Of a stretch of 64,000 bases of DNA, positions 14,769 through 21,147 are shown in pieces (the stretch's first letter is position 1; the number at the start of each line of letters is the position of its first letter). The stretch lies in the NCBI RefSeq assembly GCF_003324485.1, contig NZ_QODK01000002.1, positions 124,001 through 188,000 on the forward strand. The letters run 5' to 3'. The position numbers were made by a program, and so were the translations under genes. Under the pieces are notes generated by a model, which was given only the letters and a program-made list of their open reading frames with translations, made no database searches and was not told where the DNA came from. Origin of the DNA: Cohaesibacter intestini. Its GTDB lineage: Bacteria; Pseudomonadota; Alphaproteobacteria; Rhizobiales; Cohaesibacteraceae.

Positions 14769-15200
14769 TCGATTGTCCTTTTTATATCTGATCTTTCCGG
14801 CCCGTTTGTAACGGGATTGAATTGTTCGCCAGCATAGGCAAGAACTAAGATCAGTTCCATCCTCTCTTGCTTCAATCCCCGACAATCCCGCAAAATGGAC
14901 TGAAAACCTCGTCATTCCGGCTTCGATATCGATGCCTGATGCCATATTTTAAACGATTCACACCATAGAACAAAATGTGTACATTTTAAATTTGTCTCGC
15001 TAATATGACCAAAAATTGAATCACTCAAACCGCGTGATTGCCATAGGTTTGACAAAGCACTATTGGAAGCTGTGAAGGCGTCATCAGGACTTTCCCAGAG
15101 GAATGATCCTTTGCGCTTCGTCACACGTACCAACGACTTCAGCGATTGTGCCCACAAAGCCCATTGGAATACAAAGCGATCCGTCCCGAAAAGGTCTGTC
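14769..15200. other. Divergent promoter region between ssb and uvrA (432 bases)
   Basis: No gene is supported here: frames on either strand are upstream extensions of ssb and uvrA. It holds AT-rich blocks on both sides of a LexA-like site and an imperfect inverted repeat GAAC-N8-GTTC near 14851-14866. It must contain promoters for both genes. Confidence 0.7.
14968..14982. promoter_or_regulatory. Candidate LexA (SOS) box between ssb and uvrA
   Basis: GAACAAAATGTGTAC matches the alphaproteobacterial SOS consensus GAAC-N7-GAAC with one mismatch (GTAC for GAAC) and lies between two divergent genes that are classic LexA targets. Binding is inferred. Confidence 0.6.
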
Positions 15201-18104
15201 ATGTACAAGGATAACGAGAAATCCGTTGCTCCCTCCCAGGTTTCATCCCAGAAAATGATTTCGATTCGCGGCGCGCGGGAACATAACCTCAAGAATGTCG
15301 ATCTGGACATTCCGCGCGATCAGCTGATCGTCATGACCGGCCTGTCTGGTTCGGGCAAGAGTTCGCTTGCCTTTGACACCATCTATGCGGAAGGCCAACG
15401 GCGTTACGTGGAATCGCTCTCCGCCTATGCTCGGCAGTTCCTTGAAATGATGCAGAAGCCGGATGTCGACCAGATTGACGGCCTGTCGCCCGCCATTTCC
15501 ATCGAGCAGAAGACCACGTCACGCAACCCGCGCTCCACCGTCGGTACGGTGACCGAGATCTACGACTATATGCGTCTGTTGTTTGCCCGCGTCGGCATTC
15601 CCTATTCACCAGCCACGGGACTGCCGATTGAGAGCCAGACCGTCAGCCAGATGGTCGACCGGGTGATGGATCTACCGGTCAAATCGCGCTTTCTTCTGCT
15701 CGCTCCGATTGTGCGTGGCCGCAAGGGAGAGTTCCGCAAGGAGCTGGCCGAACTGGTCAAACGCGGCCTCACCCGCTTCCGCATCGATGGGCAGATGTAT
15801 GACGATGGTGACCTGCCGACACTGGATAAGAAGTTCAAGCATAATATTGAGGTCGTGGTTCACCGCATGGTGGTCAAAGAAGGCATTGAAAAGCGCCTTG
15901 CCGACTCCCTCGAATTGTCTCTGGAGCTGGCCGACGGTCTGGCGATTGTCGAACTGGTTGACGAGAAGGACGATAAGGGAGAACCAAAACGCATCACCTT
16001 CTCGGAAAAATTCGCCTGCCCGGTCTCCGGCTTCACAATTCCGGAAATTGAACCACGGCTTTTCTCGTTCAACAATCCCTTTGGTGCCTGCCCGACCTGC
16101 GATGGTCTGGGCAGTGAATTGCAGATCAGTCCCGATCTTGTCGTCCCAGACACCTCACTCAGTCTCAAGGATGGGGCCATTGCGCCATGGGCCAAAGGCA
16201 CCTCGCCATTCTATCGCCAGACACTGGACGCCCTTGCCAAGCATTATGACTTCAAGCTGACCGTGCCGTGGATCGAATTGCCCTTCAAGGCACAGGAAGT
16301 GCTTCTGTATGGCACGGGCGAGGAAAAGGTTCAGTTCGTCTATGACGACGGTGCCCGCTCCTACAAATCGCAAAAACCATTCGAGGGGGTCATTCCCAAT
16401 CTCGAGCGCCGCTTCCGCGAAACCGAAAGCAACTGGGCGCGCGAGGAGATCGGCAAATACCAGTCAAGCCACCCCTGCTCGGCCTGTGATGGCCACCGCC
16501 TGAAGCCCGAGGCCTTGGCGGTCAAGCTCGACAATAAGCATATTTCTGAAGTCTCCAGCCTGTCGATCCGCGCTGCCGCTCACTGGGTGCGCGACCTGCC
16601 GGACAGCTTGACGCCCAAACAAATGGAAATTGCCGAGCGGATTCTCAAAGAAATCCGTGAGCGCCTGACCTTCCTGAATGATGTGGGGCTGGAATATCTG
16701 ACCCTGTCGCGCAATTCCGGCACCTTGTCGGGCGGCGAAAGCCAGCGCATCCGACTCGCCTCGCAAATAGGCTCCGGCCTGACCGGTGTGCTTTATGTGC
16801 TCGACGAACCTTCCATCGGCCTGCATCAGCGCGACAATGCCCGCTTGCTCGAAACCCTCAAACATCTGCGCAATCTGGGCAACACCGTCATCGTGGTCGA
16901 ACATGATGAAGACGCGATCCTAACCGCAGACCATGTCATCGATGTCGGCCCCGGTGCAGGCATCCATGGGGGACGGATTGTCTCACAAGGCACCCCAGAC
17001 CATATCAAGAATGACCCGGCATCGCTGACCGGCCAGTATTTGTCCGGCGTTGAAGTGATTGGCGTTGACCACGAGCGCCGCAAGGGCAAAAAAGGCAAAA
17101 ATATCACGGTCGTCAATGCCCGCGGCAACAACCTCAAAAATGTCACGGCATCGATCCCACTTGGCACATTCTCCTGTGTGACGGGCGTTTCGGGTGGCGG
17201 CAAGTCCACCTTCCTGATCGATACCCTTTACAAGGGTGCAGCCATGAAGCTCAATCGTGCCCGTGCCATGCCATCCCCGCACGACCGGATCGAAGGCTTG
17301 GAACATGTCGACAAGATCATCGATATCGACCAGTCACCGATTGGCCGCACGCCACGCTCCAATCCGGCCACCTATACCGGGGCCTTTACCCCGATCCGCG
17401 AATGGTTCGCCGGTCTGCCGGAAGCCAAGGCACGCGGCTATGCACCGGGTCGTTTCTCCTTCAACGTCAAGGGCGGTCGTTGTGAGGCCTGTCAGGGCGA
17501 CGGGGTGATCAAAATCGAAATGCACTTCCTGCCCGATGTCTATGTCACCTGTGACGTCTGCAAGGGCCACCGCTACAATCGCGAAACCCTTGAAGTGGAA
17601 TTCAAAGGCAAATCCATCGCCGATGTGTTGGAAATGACCGTCGATGAAGCCGCCGACTTCTTTGCCGCGGTGCCATCGGTGCGTGACAAGATGGTCACCC
17701 TGCAAAGAGTGGGGCTTGGCTATATCAAGGTCGGCCAGCAAGCGACCACTTTGTCGGGCGGCGAAGCCCAGCGCGTGAAATTGTCCAAGGAATTATCCAA
17801 ACGCTCAACGGGTCGCACGCTTTATATTCTAGACGAGCCGACCACAGGTCTGCATTTCCACGATGTGGCCAAGCTGCTCGAAGTGCTGCACAAGTTGGTG
17901 AATCAGGGCAATACGGTGATTGTCATCGAGCACAATCTCGAAGTGATCCAGACTGCGGACTGGATTCTCGACCTTGGCCCTGAAGGTGGCGATGGCGGCG
18001 GCCAGATTGTCGCTCAGGGCACGCCGGAGGATGTTGCCAAGCATGAGCGTAGCTATACCGGCATTTTCCTCAAGGAGCTGCAGGACCGCCGCAGCAAGCC
18101 GTAA
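15201..18104 (+). CDS. uvrA: Excinuclease ABC subunit A
   Basis: DNA-damage recognition ATPase of nucleotide excision repair. From the ATG at 15201 (AAGG 6-9 bases upstream) it is 967 residues. It has two ABC ATPase modules: Walker [11 protein letters not shown] near residue 52 with signature LSGGESQR, and [11 protein letters not shown] near 665 with LSGGEAQR. Zinc-finger cysteines are visible as [23 protein letters not shown] and CDVCKGH, and the UvrB-binding part lies between the first Walker A and its signature. A shorter start at the Met just before [10 protein letters not shown] (15255) is possible; the 46 residues upstream of 15201 are not conserved-looking. Divergent from ssb, terminator downstream. 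Confidence 0.98.
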
Positions 18105-18180
18105 TTCTGTCCACAGCGCCCACTTTTTCCACATGGCGCGAAAATAGGCACTCCAAGACAGACGCCGAAAAGACGGAATC

Positions 18181-18214
18181 AGGGTTGGCATCGCATGATT
18201 GCCAGCCCTTTTTG
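18181..18214 (+). terminator. Terminator after uvrA
   Basis: AGGGTTGGCA and TGCCAGCCCT (one G-T pair) enclose a 9-base loop and are followed by a T-run, 77 bases after the uvrA stop. Confidence 0.8.
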
Positions 18215-18640
18215 CTTCAAAAACGCATGGCTTGTGCACATTGATATACAGAATTGTTGTCTTTGAACTAGATCAAACCCTTTAGCTCGCCTTATGTTGC
18301 AGTGCATAATATCAAGGCAGATTTGGCAGAAAATGCTGTTATTTTGCTCGTATTCACCGACACAAATTTCGGCCTAAGCGCTCTCTACGCGCCAACTTAC
18401 GTAGATACCTCTAATTGGAAGGTCGAAACCTGACCTTTTGGGTAATTTTTTAAACCATTGTAATTGCAAAGAAAATACATCTACTCACCATTTCTCAGGT
18501 GGGAAACCCAACTAGACTGCGACAATTTTACAGATTTGCACGAGATGCAGAACTGCTATGCAATATTGTGCAGTGCACATTCATTTCTGATTTGTTAGAA
18601 ATATTCCAACAACAGTGATCAACAAGATCACTTCAGAAAT
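18215..18640. other. AT-rich non-coding stretch upstream of the small RNA
   Basis: No gene-like frame on either strand. It contains an FNR/FixK-like site TTGAA-CTAG-ATCAA at 18263-18276 (one mismatch to TTGAT-N4-ATCAA) and a weak hairpin AAGGTC-N7-GACCTT at 18419-18437 followed by TTTTGGGTAATTTTTT. The promoter of the downstream small RNA must lie in its last part; I could not pick it with confidence. Confidence 0.5.
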
Positions 18641-18747
18641 TCAGGTTTCCTCCTCCTCCCAGAAACCTGATGGTTTCAAAACGACCTCCTCCCCGTTTTG
18701 AGACGTTCAATAAGCCCACCGGACCTCCTCCCCCGGTGGGCTTTTTG
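18641..18747 (+). ncRNA. Small RNA with three anti-Shine-Dalgarno (CCTCCTCCC) stem-loops, alpha-r14/suhB or 'cuckoo' type
   Basis: Three hairpins follow each other on the plus strand. Hairpin 1 pairs TCAGGTTTC (18641-18649) with GAAACCTGA (18662-18670); hairpin 2 pairs TCAAAACG (18676-18683) with CGTTTTGA (18694-18701); hairpin 3 pairs AAGCCCACCGG (18712-18722) with CCGGTGGGCTT (18733-18743) and ends in a T-run, making a terminator. Each loop exposes the same nine bases CCTCCTCCC, complementary to ribosome-binding sites; loops 2 and 3 are identical (ACCTCCTCCC). This is the architecture of the alphaproteobacterial alpha-r14 (suhB motif) RNAs, such as NfeR1 of Sinorhizobium, and of Rhodobacter CcsR RNAs. 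It probably represses translation of many mRNAs, likely with Hfq. The 5' end is a guess: transcription may begin some 10-30 bases upstream. Confidence 0.88.
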
Positions 18748-18870
18748 CTTTCCGCCTTTCTGAAACCCCGGAAACGGACACAAGTCTCATCAATCAGCGC
18801 GCGCAACAGCACACTCCCGGACAGGATCCATGCGCATTCTGTTATTTTGAAGGGATTAATGCAGTCCGGC

Positions 18871-19512
18871 TCAGCTTGCCTGTCGGGACGGGGATTCGCG
18901 ATACCAGGCTTCCAACGGCTTGATGATCGGCAGAACGCCATTGTCGTGACGCCAGCTATCAACCGCGTGCCTTTTTCCGCTTTCCTTGTCCTTTACCACG
19001 GCTGTGGCATGAGGATAACGACCATCAAGGAAAAAGCCGCGAGCCACCGGTGCAAGCACGGTGTGATATTTGAGCAATCCGTTTTTCTCGGCATAGGTCA
19101 GATAAGACGTGGTGTTGCTGGCTTCATCGATGCAATCCATTTGTCCTGCGACACCGGAATTGCGCATATCAAGCCCGCCAATATCCTTGTCAGAGCCGAC
19201 AATCGGCCCAACCCGCTTCTCGAACCATTGAACGGCCTTGCCGATGGCTTCGCGCTCAGCTTCCGGGCTCGCCTTGCCACGCGCCAGAATGGACTTGAGC
19301 TTTGCCAGATCCTTTTCACCGGGTCTGAAACTGTGCTTCAGTTTGCACCCGAAGGCATGGCAAATGTAAATCTGGCTGCTGCTCGGCGCGCGATAGCTCA
19401 TCCGCGAGGACCAATCGTCCAGAGAACTGGTGCTCTGGGTCTGGCACCCGGCCAGCAAGGCTGACAATCCGCCGACTAGGCAAGAAAAAGAAATGGCTTT
19501 GATGCGGGTCAT
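18871..19512 (-). CDS. Lipoprotein of unknown function with probable Cys-His-Asp triad
   Basis: A 213-residue lipoprotein: MTRIKAISFSCLVGGLSALLAGC is a type II signal with lipid-attached Cys23. I start it at 19512 because the 15 residues above this Met (MIRRDTAFRSRL...) would spoil the signal. No family name comes to mind, but the second half has Cys127 in QMDCIDEASNTTSYL at the start of a predicted helix, His168 in GRYPHATAVV and Asp185 in RHAVDSWRHDNG. That order and context resemble papain-like/transglutaminase-like proteases, so I infer a thiol enzyme on the periplasmic side of a membrane. Monocistronic, divergent from trmFO, downstream of the small RNA on the opposite strand. Confidence 0.82.
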   Translation of the reverse strand: MTRIKAISFSCLVGGLSALLAGCQTQSTSSLDDWSSRMSYRAPSSSQIYICHAFGCKLKHSFRPGEKDLAKLKSILARGKASPEAEREAIGKAVQWFEKRVGPIVGSDKDIGGLDMRNSGVAGQMDCIDEASNTTSYLTYAEKNGLLKYHTVLAPVARGFFLDGRYPHATAVVKDKESGKRHAVDSWRHDNGVLPIIKPLEAWYRESPSRQAS

Positions 19513-19749
19513 GATGTGAATGAGTCGGCTCCGAAAGGCTGTGTCGCGTCTAATCATGTATCACCGCACCTTGGCAATGCCAAATGGAAAAATTCCAATA
19601 GACGCCCATCATGATGCAGATCTGCGAGCCAACGACAGGGCCATCTTTCTGCGCTCAAGGCACAAGTCAGGCTTTGCTTCTGAGCCGAAGGATGATAGGA
19701 AAACCCACTTTCCCTCGCTTTGCAAATCTATCTGGAGTGTTGGCAGATC

Positions 19750-21147
19750 ATGCAAACCAAAAAATCCGTTCGTATCATCGGCGCCGGTCTTGCAGGCTCT
19801 GAAGCCGCTTGGCAATTGGCCAATCAAGGCGTGCCCGTGATCTTGCAGGAAATGCGCCCTGTCCGCTCGACCGATGCCCATGTCACGGATCACTGTGCAG
19901 AGCTGGTCTGCTCCAACTCTTTTCGCTCTGACGACCATGAGGCCAACGCGGTCGGTCTGCTGCATCAGGAAATGCGAGAGGCGCAGTCTCTGATCATCTC
20001 CGCAGCCGATGCCAATGCCGTGCCTGCAGGTGGCGCGTTGGCAGTTGCGCGTGAAGCGTTTTCCGAAGCGGTCACCGACCGTTTGGCGGCTCATCCTTTA
20101 ATCACCTTGGTGCGTGGCGAAGTGGACGCATTGCCTGATCCTGAGGCGGGCCCTTGCCTGATCGCCACCGGCCCCCTTACCTCCAAGTCACTTTCCGAGG
20201 CAATCTTGGCGGCAACAGGCGAGGAATCCCTCGCATTTTACGATGCCATTGCACCGATCGTCCATTTCGACTCGATCAATATGGACAAAGCATGGTTCCA
20301 GTCCCGCTATGACAAGGTCGGCCCGTCAGGCACAGGCGCGGACTATATCAATTGCGGCATGAACGAAGCCGAATACAAGGCCTTCATCGCGGCGATGCTG
20401 GAAGCAGACAAAGCTGAATTCAAGGAATGGGAAGAAAAGGCGAAATATTTCGACGGCTGCCTGCCGATTGAAGTGATGGCCGAGCGCGGCATCGACACGC
20501 CTCGCTATGGTCCGATGAAACCCGTCGGCCTGACCAACCCCCATGATCCGGATACCGATCCCTATGCGGTGGTGCAATTGCGCCAGGACAACAAGCTCGG
20601 CACCCTCTACAACATCGTCGGCTTCCAGACCAAAATGAAATATGGCGCACAAGCAGACGTATTTCGCATGATCCCCGGTCTCGAAAAGGCCCAGTTTGCG
20701 CGCCTTGGCGGCATTCACAGGAATACTTTCCTGAACTCGCCGAAGCTGCTGGACCAGAGCCTGCGCCTCAAATCGATGCCTCATCTACGCTTTGCCGGTC
20801 AGATCACCGGCTGCGAAGGATATGTGGAATCAGCGGCGATTGGTCTGTTGGCGGGTCGCTTCATCGCTGCTGAGCTTGCCGGACAAACCCTTGCCCCACC
20901 GCCGGAAACCACCGCATTTGGTGCGTTGCTTGGCCACATCACCGGGGGACATTTGATCGATTCCAACGGCGGTCAGCGCTCTTTCCAGCCGATGAATGTC
21001 AATTTCGGGCTGTTCCCACCCGTGGAATTTTCGCGCCGCCGGGAAGATGGCTCGAAAATGCGGGGGCCAGAAAAGCAGTTGTCGAAGAAAAAAGCGCTCA
21101 CCAAACGGGCATTGGAAGACATCAAGGGCTGGTTGCAACAGGCATAG
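19750..21147 (+). CDS. trmFO: Methylenetetrahydrofolate-tRNA-(uracil-54-C5)-methyltransferase
   Basis: Folate- and FAD-dependent enzyme that makes ribothymidine at position 54 of tRNA. The 465-residue protein begins [20 protein letters not shown], a dinucleotide-binding motif for FAD, followed by the family signature [19 protein letters not shown], which includes a conserved cysteine near residue 51. [20 protein letters not shown] near 355 is the second FAD-contacting segment. The frame reaches 10 codons further up to an ATG at 19720, but the Met at 19750 matches family N-termini. GGAG lies about 12 bases upstream, slightly far. It converges on the squalene-synthase-like gene with only 24 bases between stops. 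Confidence 0.96.

Follow-up and report, generated by a model that had tools for sequence, protein, structure and literature searches.

The closest described relatives of the RNA reported here belong to the ar14 family, whose members fold into three hairpins that carry an identical CCUCCUCCC motif on stems of variable sequence (PMC10746234). NfeR1 of Sinorhizobium meliloti, also called Smr14C2, is the founding member. It is 123 nt long, acts independently of Hfq, and pairs its redundant loops with the translation start regions of mRNAs (PMC10746234). In reporter assays, two transporter mRNAs and ntrB were silenced, and the loops could stand in for one another (PMC10746234). S. meliloti carries six NfeR1-type copies, and in the conditions tested only one of them gave a signal on Northern blots (PMC7143759); therefore, an ar14 copy need not be expressed. 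Three- and four-hairpin RNAs with the CCUCCUCCC motif, SmelA075 and SmelA099, were also described in earlier work (PMC3927594).

A second described layout associates such RNAs with a gene encoding a small DUF1127 protein, an association named CIN1 by Reinkensmeier and Giegerich in 2015 (quoted in PMC10253847). What the DUF1127 protein does is debated, with RNA binding reported in Rhodobacter and protein contacts in Agrobacterium (PMC12501420). In Brucella, VtlR, a homologue of LsrB, activates three DUF1127 genes, and a binding box, CAATGCAGCCATGCA, has been reported for it (PMC12595884). Finally, a partial likeness to suhB has been credited in a review to the alpha-r15 (AbcR) and alpha-r8 (MmgR) families (PMC7143759).

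Here we describe an ar14 locus of Cohaesibacter intestini that lies in a 64-kb stretch of the genome, hereafter the window, to whose first base all coordinates refer unless a contig or locus is named.

The locus encodes an ar14 RNA

Three hairpins follow one another on the plus strand between positions 18641 and 18743, with stems of 9, 11 and 11 bp, and each of them carries CCTCCTCCC in its loop. This arrangement had been proposed in an earlier analysis made from the letters of the DNA alone (the sequence-only reading), and it is present where that analysis placed it. Hairpin 1 (18641-18670) has 9 bp and the loop CTCCTCCTCCCA. Hairpin 2 (18673-18704) has the loop ACCTCCTCCC and a stem of 11 bp, including one G-U pair, rather than the 8 bp first counted; the lengths of 9 and 11 bp given for hairpins 1 and 3 were correct. 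Hairpin 3 has an 11-bp stem (18712-18743) and again the loop ACCTCCTCCC, and is followed by T residues up to 18746. The whole feature (18712-18746) is terminator-like, in keeping with the terminator previously suggested. It is missing from the output of a consensus terminator scan because its 10-nt loop exceeds the limit of 8 set in that scan.

The 9-mer CCTCCTCCC occurs three times on the two strands of the window, each time as one of these loops, while a mean of 0.59 occurrences would be expected and 1 of 100 shuffles reached three. Folding of positions 18620-18760 gave -46.7 kcal/mol, compared with -26.85 kcal/mol (s.d. 3.33) in 200 shuffles, none of which folded as well (z -5.96).

The Rfam model for ar14 (RF02344) matches the plus strand at 18636-18748 over model positions 1-123, with 84.2 bits against a gathering cut-off of 58.8 (E 9.7e-14 in a search of the whole window). 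It is the sole Rfam family that exceeds its cut-off in the window. CCUCCUCCC is unpaired in each of the three hairpins, and the stems vary among relatives while their pairing is kept, as detailed below. The locus is a copy of an already described sRNA family, ar14.

The likeness to alpha-r14 noted from the letters alone thus corresponds to a match above a curated cut-off. The Rfam check proposed along with it, run on this region, found ar14 and no suhB: the suhB label has to be dropped, as the suhB/MmgR model (RF00519) gave no match in 18400-18900 even at E <= 10 and instead matches one other locus of the genome, at 62.5 bits. A relationship to Rhodobacter RNAs had also been suggested. The design is indeed similar, but membership of the CcsR1 family (RF02791) is rejected, with 29.1 bits against a cut-off of 65.3 in a permissive scan of 18400-18900; the CcsR1 model has no match at E <= 0.001 in the genome of C. 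intestini.

Stems covary and loops are conserved

We searched 61 genomes, comprising that of C. intestini and others from its genus, family and order, with the ar14 model. Matches at E <= 0.001 were present in 34 of them and matches over the Rfam cut-off in 23; the latter include all 18 genomes of the genus, that of C. intestini among them. Forty stretches around the genus and family matches, together with L001, L002, L018 and L024, yielded 40 three-hairpin copies. Four weak matches in genome G019 were left out, and five loci (L054, L062, L068, L071 and L076) were dropped from the counts as weak relatives with 31-35 bits, below the Rfam cut-off, and fewer than three detectable hairpins. The alignment contains 39 copies in 31 distinct rows, the first copy of a tandem pair in locus L077 having been left out.

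When the hairpin structure of the window copy was imposed on the 31 distinct rows, 96.4% of cells were paired, compared with 89.8% (s.d. 0.5) after shuffling. Double changes were found in 67 cells, against 24.1 (s.d. 4.2) in shuffles, and 13 of the 31 pairs showed two-sided changes, against 7.3. The weakest measure, the number of further pair types, was 33 against 29.2, a value of 33 being reached by 10 of 500 shuffles. Sliding the partner column by one position lowered the pairing to 58-59%. RNAalifold predicted 30 pairs, 29 of which are identical to pairs of the window hairpins.

Regarding the loops, the core TCCTCCC is present in 119 of the 120 loops of the 40 three-hairpin copies and the full 9-mer in 89, counts that are mildly biased towards the motif because hairpins were sought around C/T-rich 7-mers, two of them without TCCTCCC. 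The sequence-only reading had made its proposal depend on covariation and loop conservation in related genomes, and both are found.

Proposed mode of action and candidate targets

Our preferred explanation, to which we assign a probability of roughly 0.8 as a whole, including the gene deletion described in the next section, is that 18636-18748 is the core of a trans-acting ar14 regulatory RNA of the NfeR1 family. The three hairpins would keep CCUCCUCCC single-stranded. By analogy with NfeR1, from which both the pairing mechanism and the redundancy of the loops are carried over, any one loop would pair with translation start regions rich in G and A, in several mRNAs. This pairing would block the entry of ribosomes and lower the translation of those mRNAs. 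Repression of translation by anti-Shine-Dalgarno loops, as previously suggested for this locus, has been reported for NfeR1 (PMC10746234) and, on that analogy, may well apply here.

Alternatively, the RNA could be a decoy or mimic of a ribosome site, with loops that act globally as competitors for Shine-Dalgarno sequences, or that sequester a protein with affinity for C-rich or anti-Shine-Dalgarno-like RNA, instead of silencing selected mRNAs. Such a role would suit the three identical loop motifs per molecule, the presence of two ar14 gene copies in the genome and the small number of perfect genomic sites. We nevertheless consider it unlikely. TCCTCCC is the most conserved part of the loops, and it is the leading bases of the 9-mer that often change. 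The tail of the 16S rRNA, CCUCCUUU, lacks the conserved CCC end, and hence selection on the loops is not like that expected for a copy of the 16S anti-Shine-Dalgarno sequence. Furthermore, NfeR1 reporters showed loop-dependent repression of named mRNAs (PMC10746234).

The search for targets of the proposed regulatory RNA, which covered pairing with yajC, the CYTH-CHAD gene and ntrB and the perfect sites of the whole genome, yielded no convincing one. AGGAGG or GGAGGA had been pointed out before yajC and the CYTH-CHAD gene, and both genes and both sites were confirmed. As specific local targets, however, they were rejected, since pairing extends over about 6 nt, with -9.7 and -10.7 kcal/mol, and cannot be distinguished from that of other, ordinary Shine-Dalgarno sites; a perfect site would reach -20.5 kcal/mol, a reference value calculated for a loop with one additional base. 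ntrB, a target of NfeR1, was likewise rejected as a conserved target, with a pairing energy of only -10.5 kcal/mol here. Its start region (locus L032, contig C2:15284-19675 of the C. intestini genome) has AGAGGCAGG, a poor match to the loops, so the NtrB-NfeR1 loop of S. meliloti may not hold in this organism. Across the genome, perfect GGGAGGAGG-N-ATG sites number nine, compared with three for the reversed pattern. None of the nine lies before an obvious gene; the frames that follow have 2 to 56 codons in eight cases and 319 codons in the ninth.

Four further places in the genome (C2:1000127, C3:699996, C4:368090 and C5:88548; L225-L228) have two TCCTCCC sequences 18-45 nt apart, an arrangement that the reversed control gave 0 times; they are not ar14 matches.

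The DUF1127 gene has been lost beside the RNA

The RNA lies between uvrA (15063-18104, plus strand; NCBIfam NF001503, 1592 bits; the start codon of the listed reading frame is uncertain) and, on the other side, a gene for a hypothetical protein of 228 aa (18871-19557, minus strand) followed by trmFO (19720-21147, plus strand; NCBIfam NF003739, 668 bits; start codon uncertain). Searches of Pfam and NCBIfam with the 228-aa protein gave nothing at E <= 0.001. By eye, it has a lipoprotein-like start, and its gene is kept in place across the genus and family.

These flanks are shared by 18 loci, including the window copy: 16 in the genus and two in other genera of the family. A small DUF1127 gene precedes the RNA in 16 of the 18, with 12-29 nt between the end of its matched part and hairpin 1. 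It is absent only from the window copy and from locus L064 of a sister species. The CIN1 layout, with DUF1127 directly upstream, is therefore rejected for the window locus, and no remnant of the gene was found in 18105-18640 (best tblastn E 0.33, best HMM E 0.35). In the other two genomes of the genus (L018 and L079), the locus or probable locus lies at a contig end, with DUF1127 present.

In a tree, L064 groups with the window copy as its sister (support 0.969), and DUF1127 is kept on the branch that comes next, L073 (support 0.782); therefore, a single deletion explains the pattern. As part of the explanation given above, and under the same overall probability, we propose that the ancestral unit would have consisted of a promoter, the DUF1127 protein gene and the ar14 RNA. 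The protein gene would then have been deleted in the common ancestor of C. intestini and its sister species, which would have put the upstream element described below directly before the RNA.

Besides the window copy, the C. intestini genome contains a second ar14 locus, at C1:151517-151631 on the minus strand. This second copy (L001:1501-1615) lies directly downstream of a DUF1127 reading frame (L001:1665-1874; Pfam PF06568, 56.4 bits), in a CIN1-type layout. Its neighbours are presumably trxA-like and folC-like genes. The genome contains one further DUF1127 match, of 32.8 bits. A DUF1127 protein encoded elsewhere could still act in trans on the window RNA.

Other arrangements were seen in relatives. 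In L077, from another genus of the family, two tandem ar14 RNAs with a DUF1127 gene between them occupy the place between uvrA and trmFO (about 2057-2624 of that locus), which suggests a duplication of the DUF1127-ar14 unit. In L043, L046, L056, L060 and L066, a further ar14 locus has DUF1127 present and no uvrA, trxA or folC in the fetched stretch.

The window copy could also be read as a decaying, non-functional remnant of a DUF1127-ar14 unit that lost its protein gene. DUF1127 is gone in both species, and neither the -10 region nor the upstream element has the form usual in the genus. Against this, the window and L064 agree in 111 of 113 columns of the RNA, compared with 59 of 150 in the downstream flank and 289 of 426 in the upstream flank, both non-coding, and 495 of 630 in neighbouring coding sequence. 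Moreover, the full 9-mer is kept in all three loops and the stems are still paired, which makes decay very improbable. The idea that the RNA belongs to a longer one, as the read-through 3' end of uvrA or a cis element for a neighbour, has its position 3' of uvrA on the same strand in its favour, but it is just as implausible, given the 536 nt between uvrA and hairpin 1, the terminator-like site at 18415-18441 between them, the conserved element just upstream and the opposite strand of the next downstream gene.

A broader possibility is that a unit of protein and RNA has turned naturally into a lone sRNA gene at this locus. On this reading, the RNA would have remained under strong selection, its three loops complete, after the loss of DUF1127, and would therefore have to be processed and to act with no partner encoded in cis. 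Across the Alphaproteobacteria, layouts of both kinds, with DUF1127 and without it, occur and can share a GCTATGCA-type upstream motif, so free-standing NfeR1-type genes may have arisen in this way repeatedly. We put this conversion forward tentatively, at a little short of even odds. A literature search that included few papers from subscription journals found no description of the DUF1127 loss, or of a motif common to both layouts, among titles and beginnings of abstracts; on that basis alone we make no claim of novelty.

Putative promoter region and upstream element

The most likely product of the locus would be a free-standing transcript of about 140 nt, with a promoter immediately before it, a start near 18608 and hairpin 3 as its end. 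The start at 18608 (plus strand) is placed at a recurring CAACA by comparison with relatives and with the layout of the NfeR1 promoter (PMC10746234), and would give a transcript of about 141 nt. A possible, weak -10 region, TTAGAA (18595-18600, plus strand), was identified by eye from the CTATAT or CTATCT of relatives; a sigma-70 promoter scan of 18400-18900 found none.

Folding of the presumed transcript (18608-18748; z -7.65) adds a 5' hairpin at 18614-18632 on the plus strand, with 7 bp and the loop AACAA. The same hairpin can be recognised by eye in L064, where one pair is changed on both sides and another from C-G to T-G, a thin comparison of two species. The gap between uvrA and the RNA contains two other blocks that by eye also occur in L064, one at 18296-18350 around TTGCAGTGCATAAT and the other a terminator-like hairpin with a T run at 18415-18441.

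Upstream of the possible -10 region lies a conserved element, TGCA-N6-GCA-N5-GCTATGCA (18537-18562, plus strand), a putative site for a LysR-type regulator like LsrB or VtlR. In relatives it stands before the DUF1127 gene; in the window, and with one mismatch in L064, it stands directly before the RNA, and 40 of 44 columns are identical between the two. Distances to the RNA differ: GCTATGCA is 86 nt from hairpin 1 in the window and 83 nt in L064, against 256-318 nt in the 15 of 16 same-flank DUF1127 loci that have the exact word. Of the 40 copies, 34 have GCTATGCA within 700 nt upstream; in L051 and L074, which are among the 34, its place is a different one.

The exact long pattern has two sites in the 4.79-Mb genome of C. 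intestini, both before ar14 loci. With two mismatches allowed, 17 more appear, and the reversed-pattern control gave one in all. Throughout the 18 genomes of the genus, the exact form has 20 sites, all of them 74-350 nt before an ar14 match (coordinates compared by eye). The one-mismatch form has 27, of which 11 lie before ar14 and 16 elsewhere, against two in all for the reversed pattern. As the exact form occurs only before ar14 loci in these genomes, the element suggests that a single regulator acts on the ar14 genes of the genus.

We also scanned genomes of named species for three exact 9-mers, which gave at least 120 stretches, 80 of which were analysed. Among the 80 matches listed, 31 are preceded, at no more than 900 nt, by a DUF1127 reading frame. 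In 18 of the same 80 (nine with and nine without DUF1127), the preceding 700 nt contain GCTATGCA or its complement; about 665 control stretches, likewise 700 nt long, gave five occurrences. These counts include three non-alphaproteobacterial records taken for chance matches (L086, L130 and L156) and some stretches with short upstream DNA (for instance, 12 nt in L082, 143 nt in L151 and 150 nt in L147).

As to the regulator, TGCA-N6-GCA lies at -71 to -59 of the presumed start, and the NfeR1 promoter has an LsrB motif, TGCA-N6-GCAT, at -72 to -60 (PMC10746234). The VtlR box is matched at 11-13 of 15 positions in 38 of the 40 copies, scores reached by 0 to 30 of 200 shuffles, with the matches in L077 lying off the element. 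In the window, the best match has 10 of 15 positions, a score that 74 of 200 shuffles also attain, and L064 also has 10 of 15, at another place. An LsrB/VtlR-type regulator is therefore plausible for the ar14 genes of the genus, and a weaker proposition for the window copy. By eye, TGC-N11-GCA, which has been reported as the NtrC motif of the NfeR1 promoter, can also be fitted to positions 18546-18562; these lie at about -62 to -46 of the presumed start as opposed to -116 to -101 in NfeR1.

Comparison with known systems

The finding itself is ordinary, since the RNA is a member of a described family; the comparison of loci has some value. At one and the same chromosomal place, some related species have DUF1127 and others lack it, which provides a natural test of the effect of DUF1127 on the adjacent RNA.

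With suhB/MmgR (RF00519) and AbcR (alpha-r15), the window RNA has in common that all are alphaproteobacterial sRNAs with anti-Shine-Dalgarno motifs (PMC7143759). It resembles the CIN1 locus of Rhodobacter sphaeroides, which comprises CcsR1-4 and the DUF1127 gene CcaF1, in its CCUCCUCCC hairpins, and most relatives of the window locus, like the second ar14 copy of the genome, also have the DUF1127 gene directly upstream. In contrast, the window locus has no DUF1127 gene and one three-hairpin RNA instead of four RNAs, and the R. sphaeroides promoter is of the RpoHI/RpoHII type (PMC10253847).

The closest counterpart is NfeR1 of S. meliloti. The window RNA exceeds the cut-off of the ar14 model and, like its counterpart, has three hairpins with unpaired CCUCCUCCC, variable stems and a terminator-like third hairpin; its gene is probably free-standing too, and both genes have TGCA-N6-GCA near -70, counted here from the presumed start (PMC10746234). 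The window RNA differs from the ar14 model in its shorter stems, with 113 nt aligned to 123 model positions. It differs from NfeR1 in the extra 5' hairpin of the presumed transcript, in its weak pairing with ntrB, and in its position, where most of its relatives have a DUF1127 gene.
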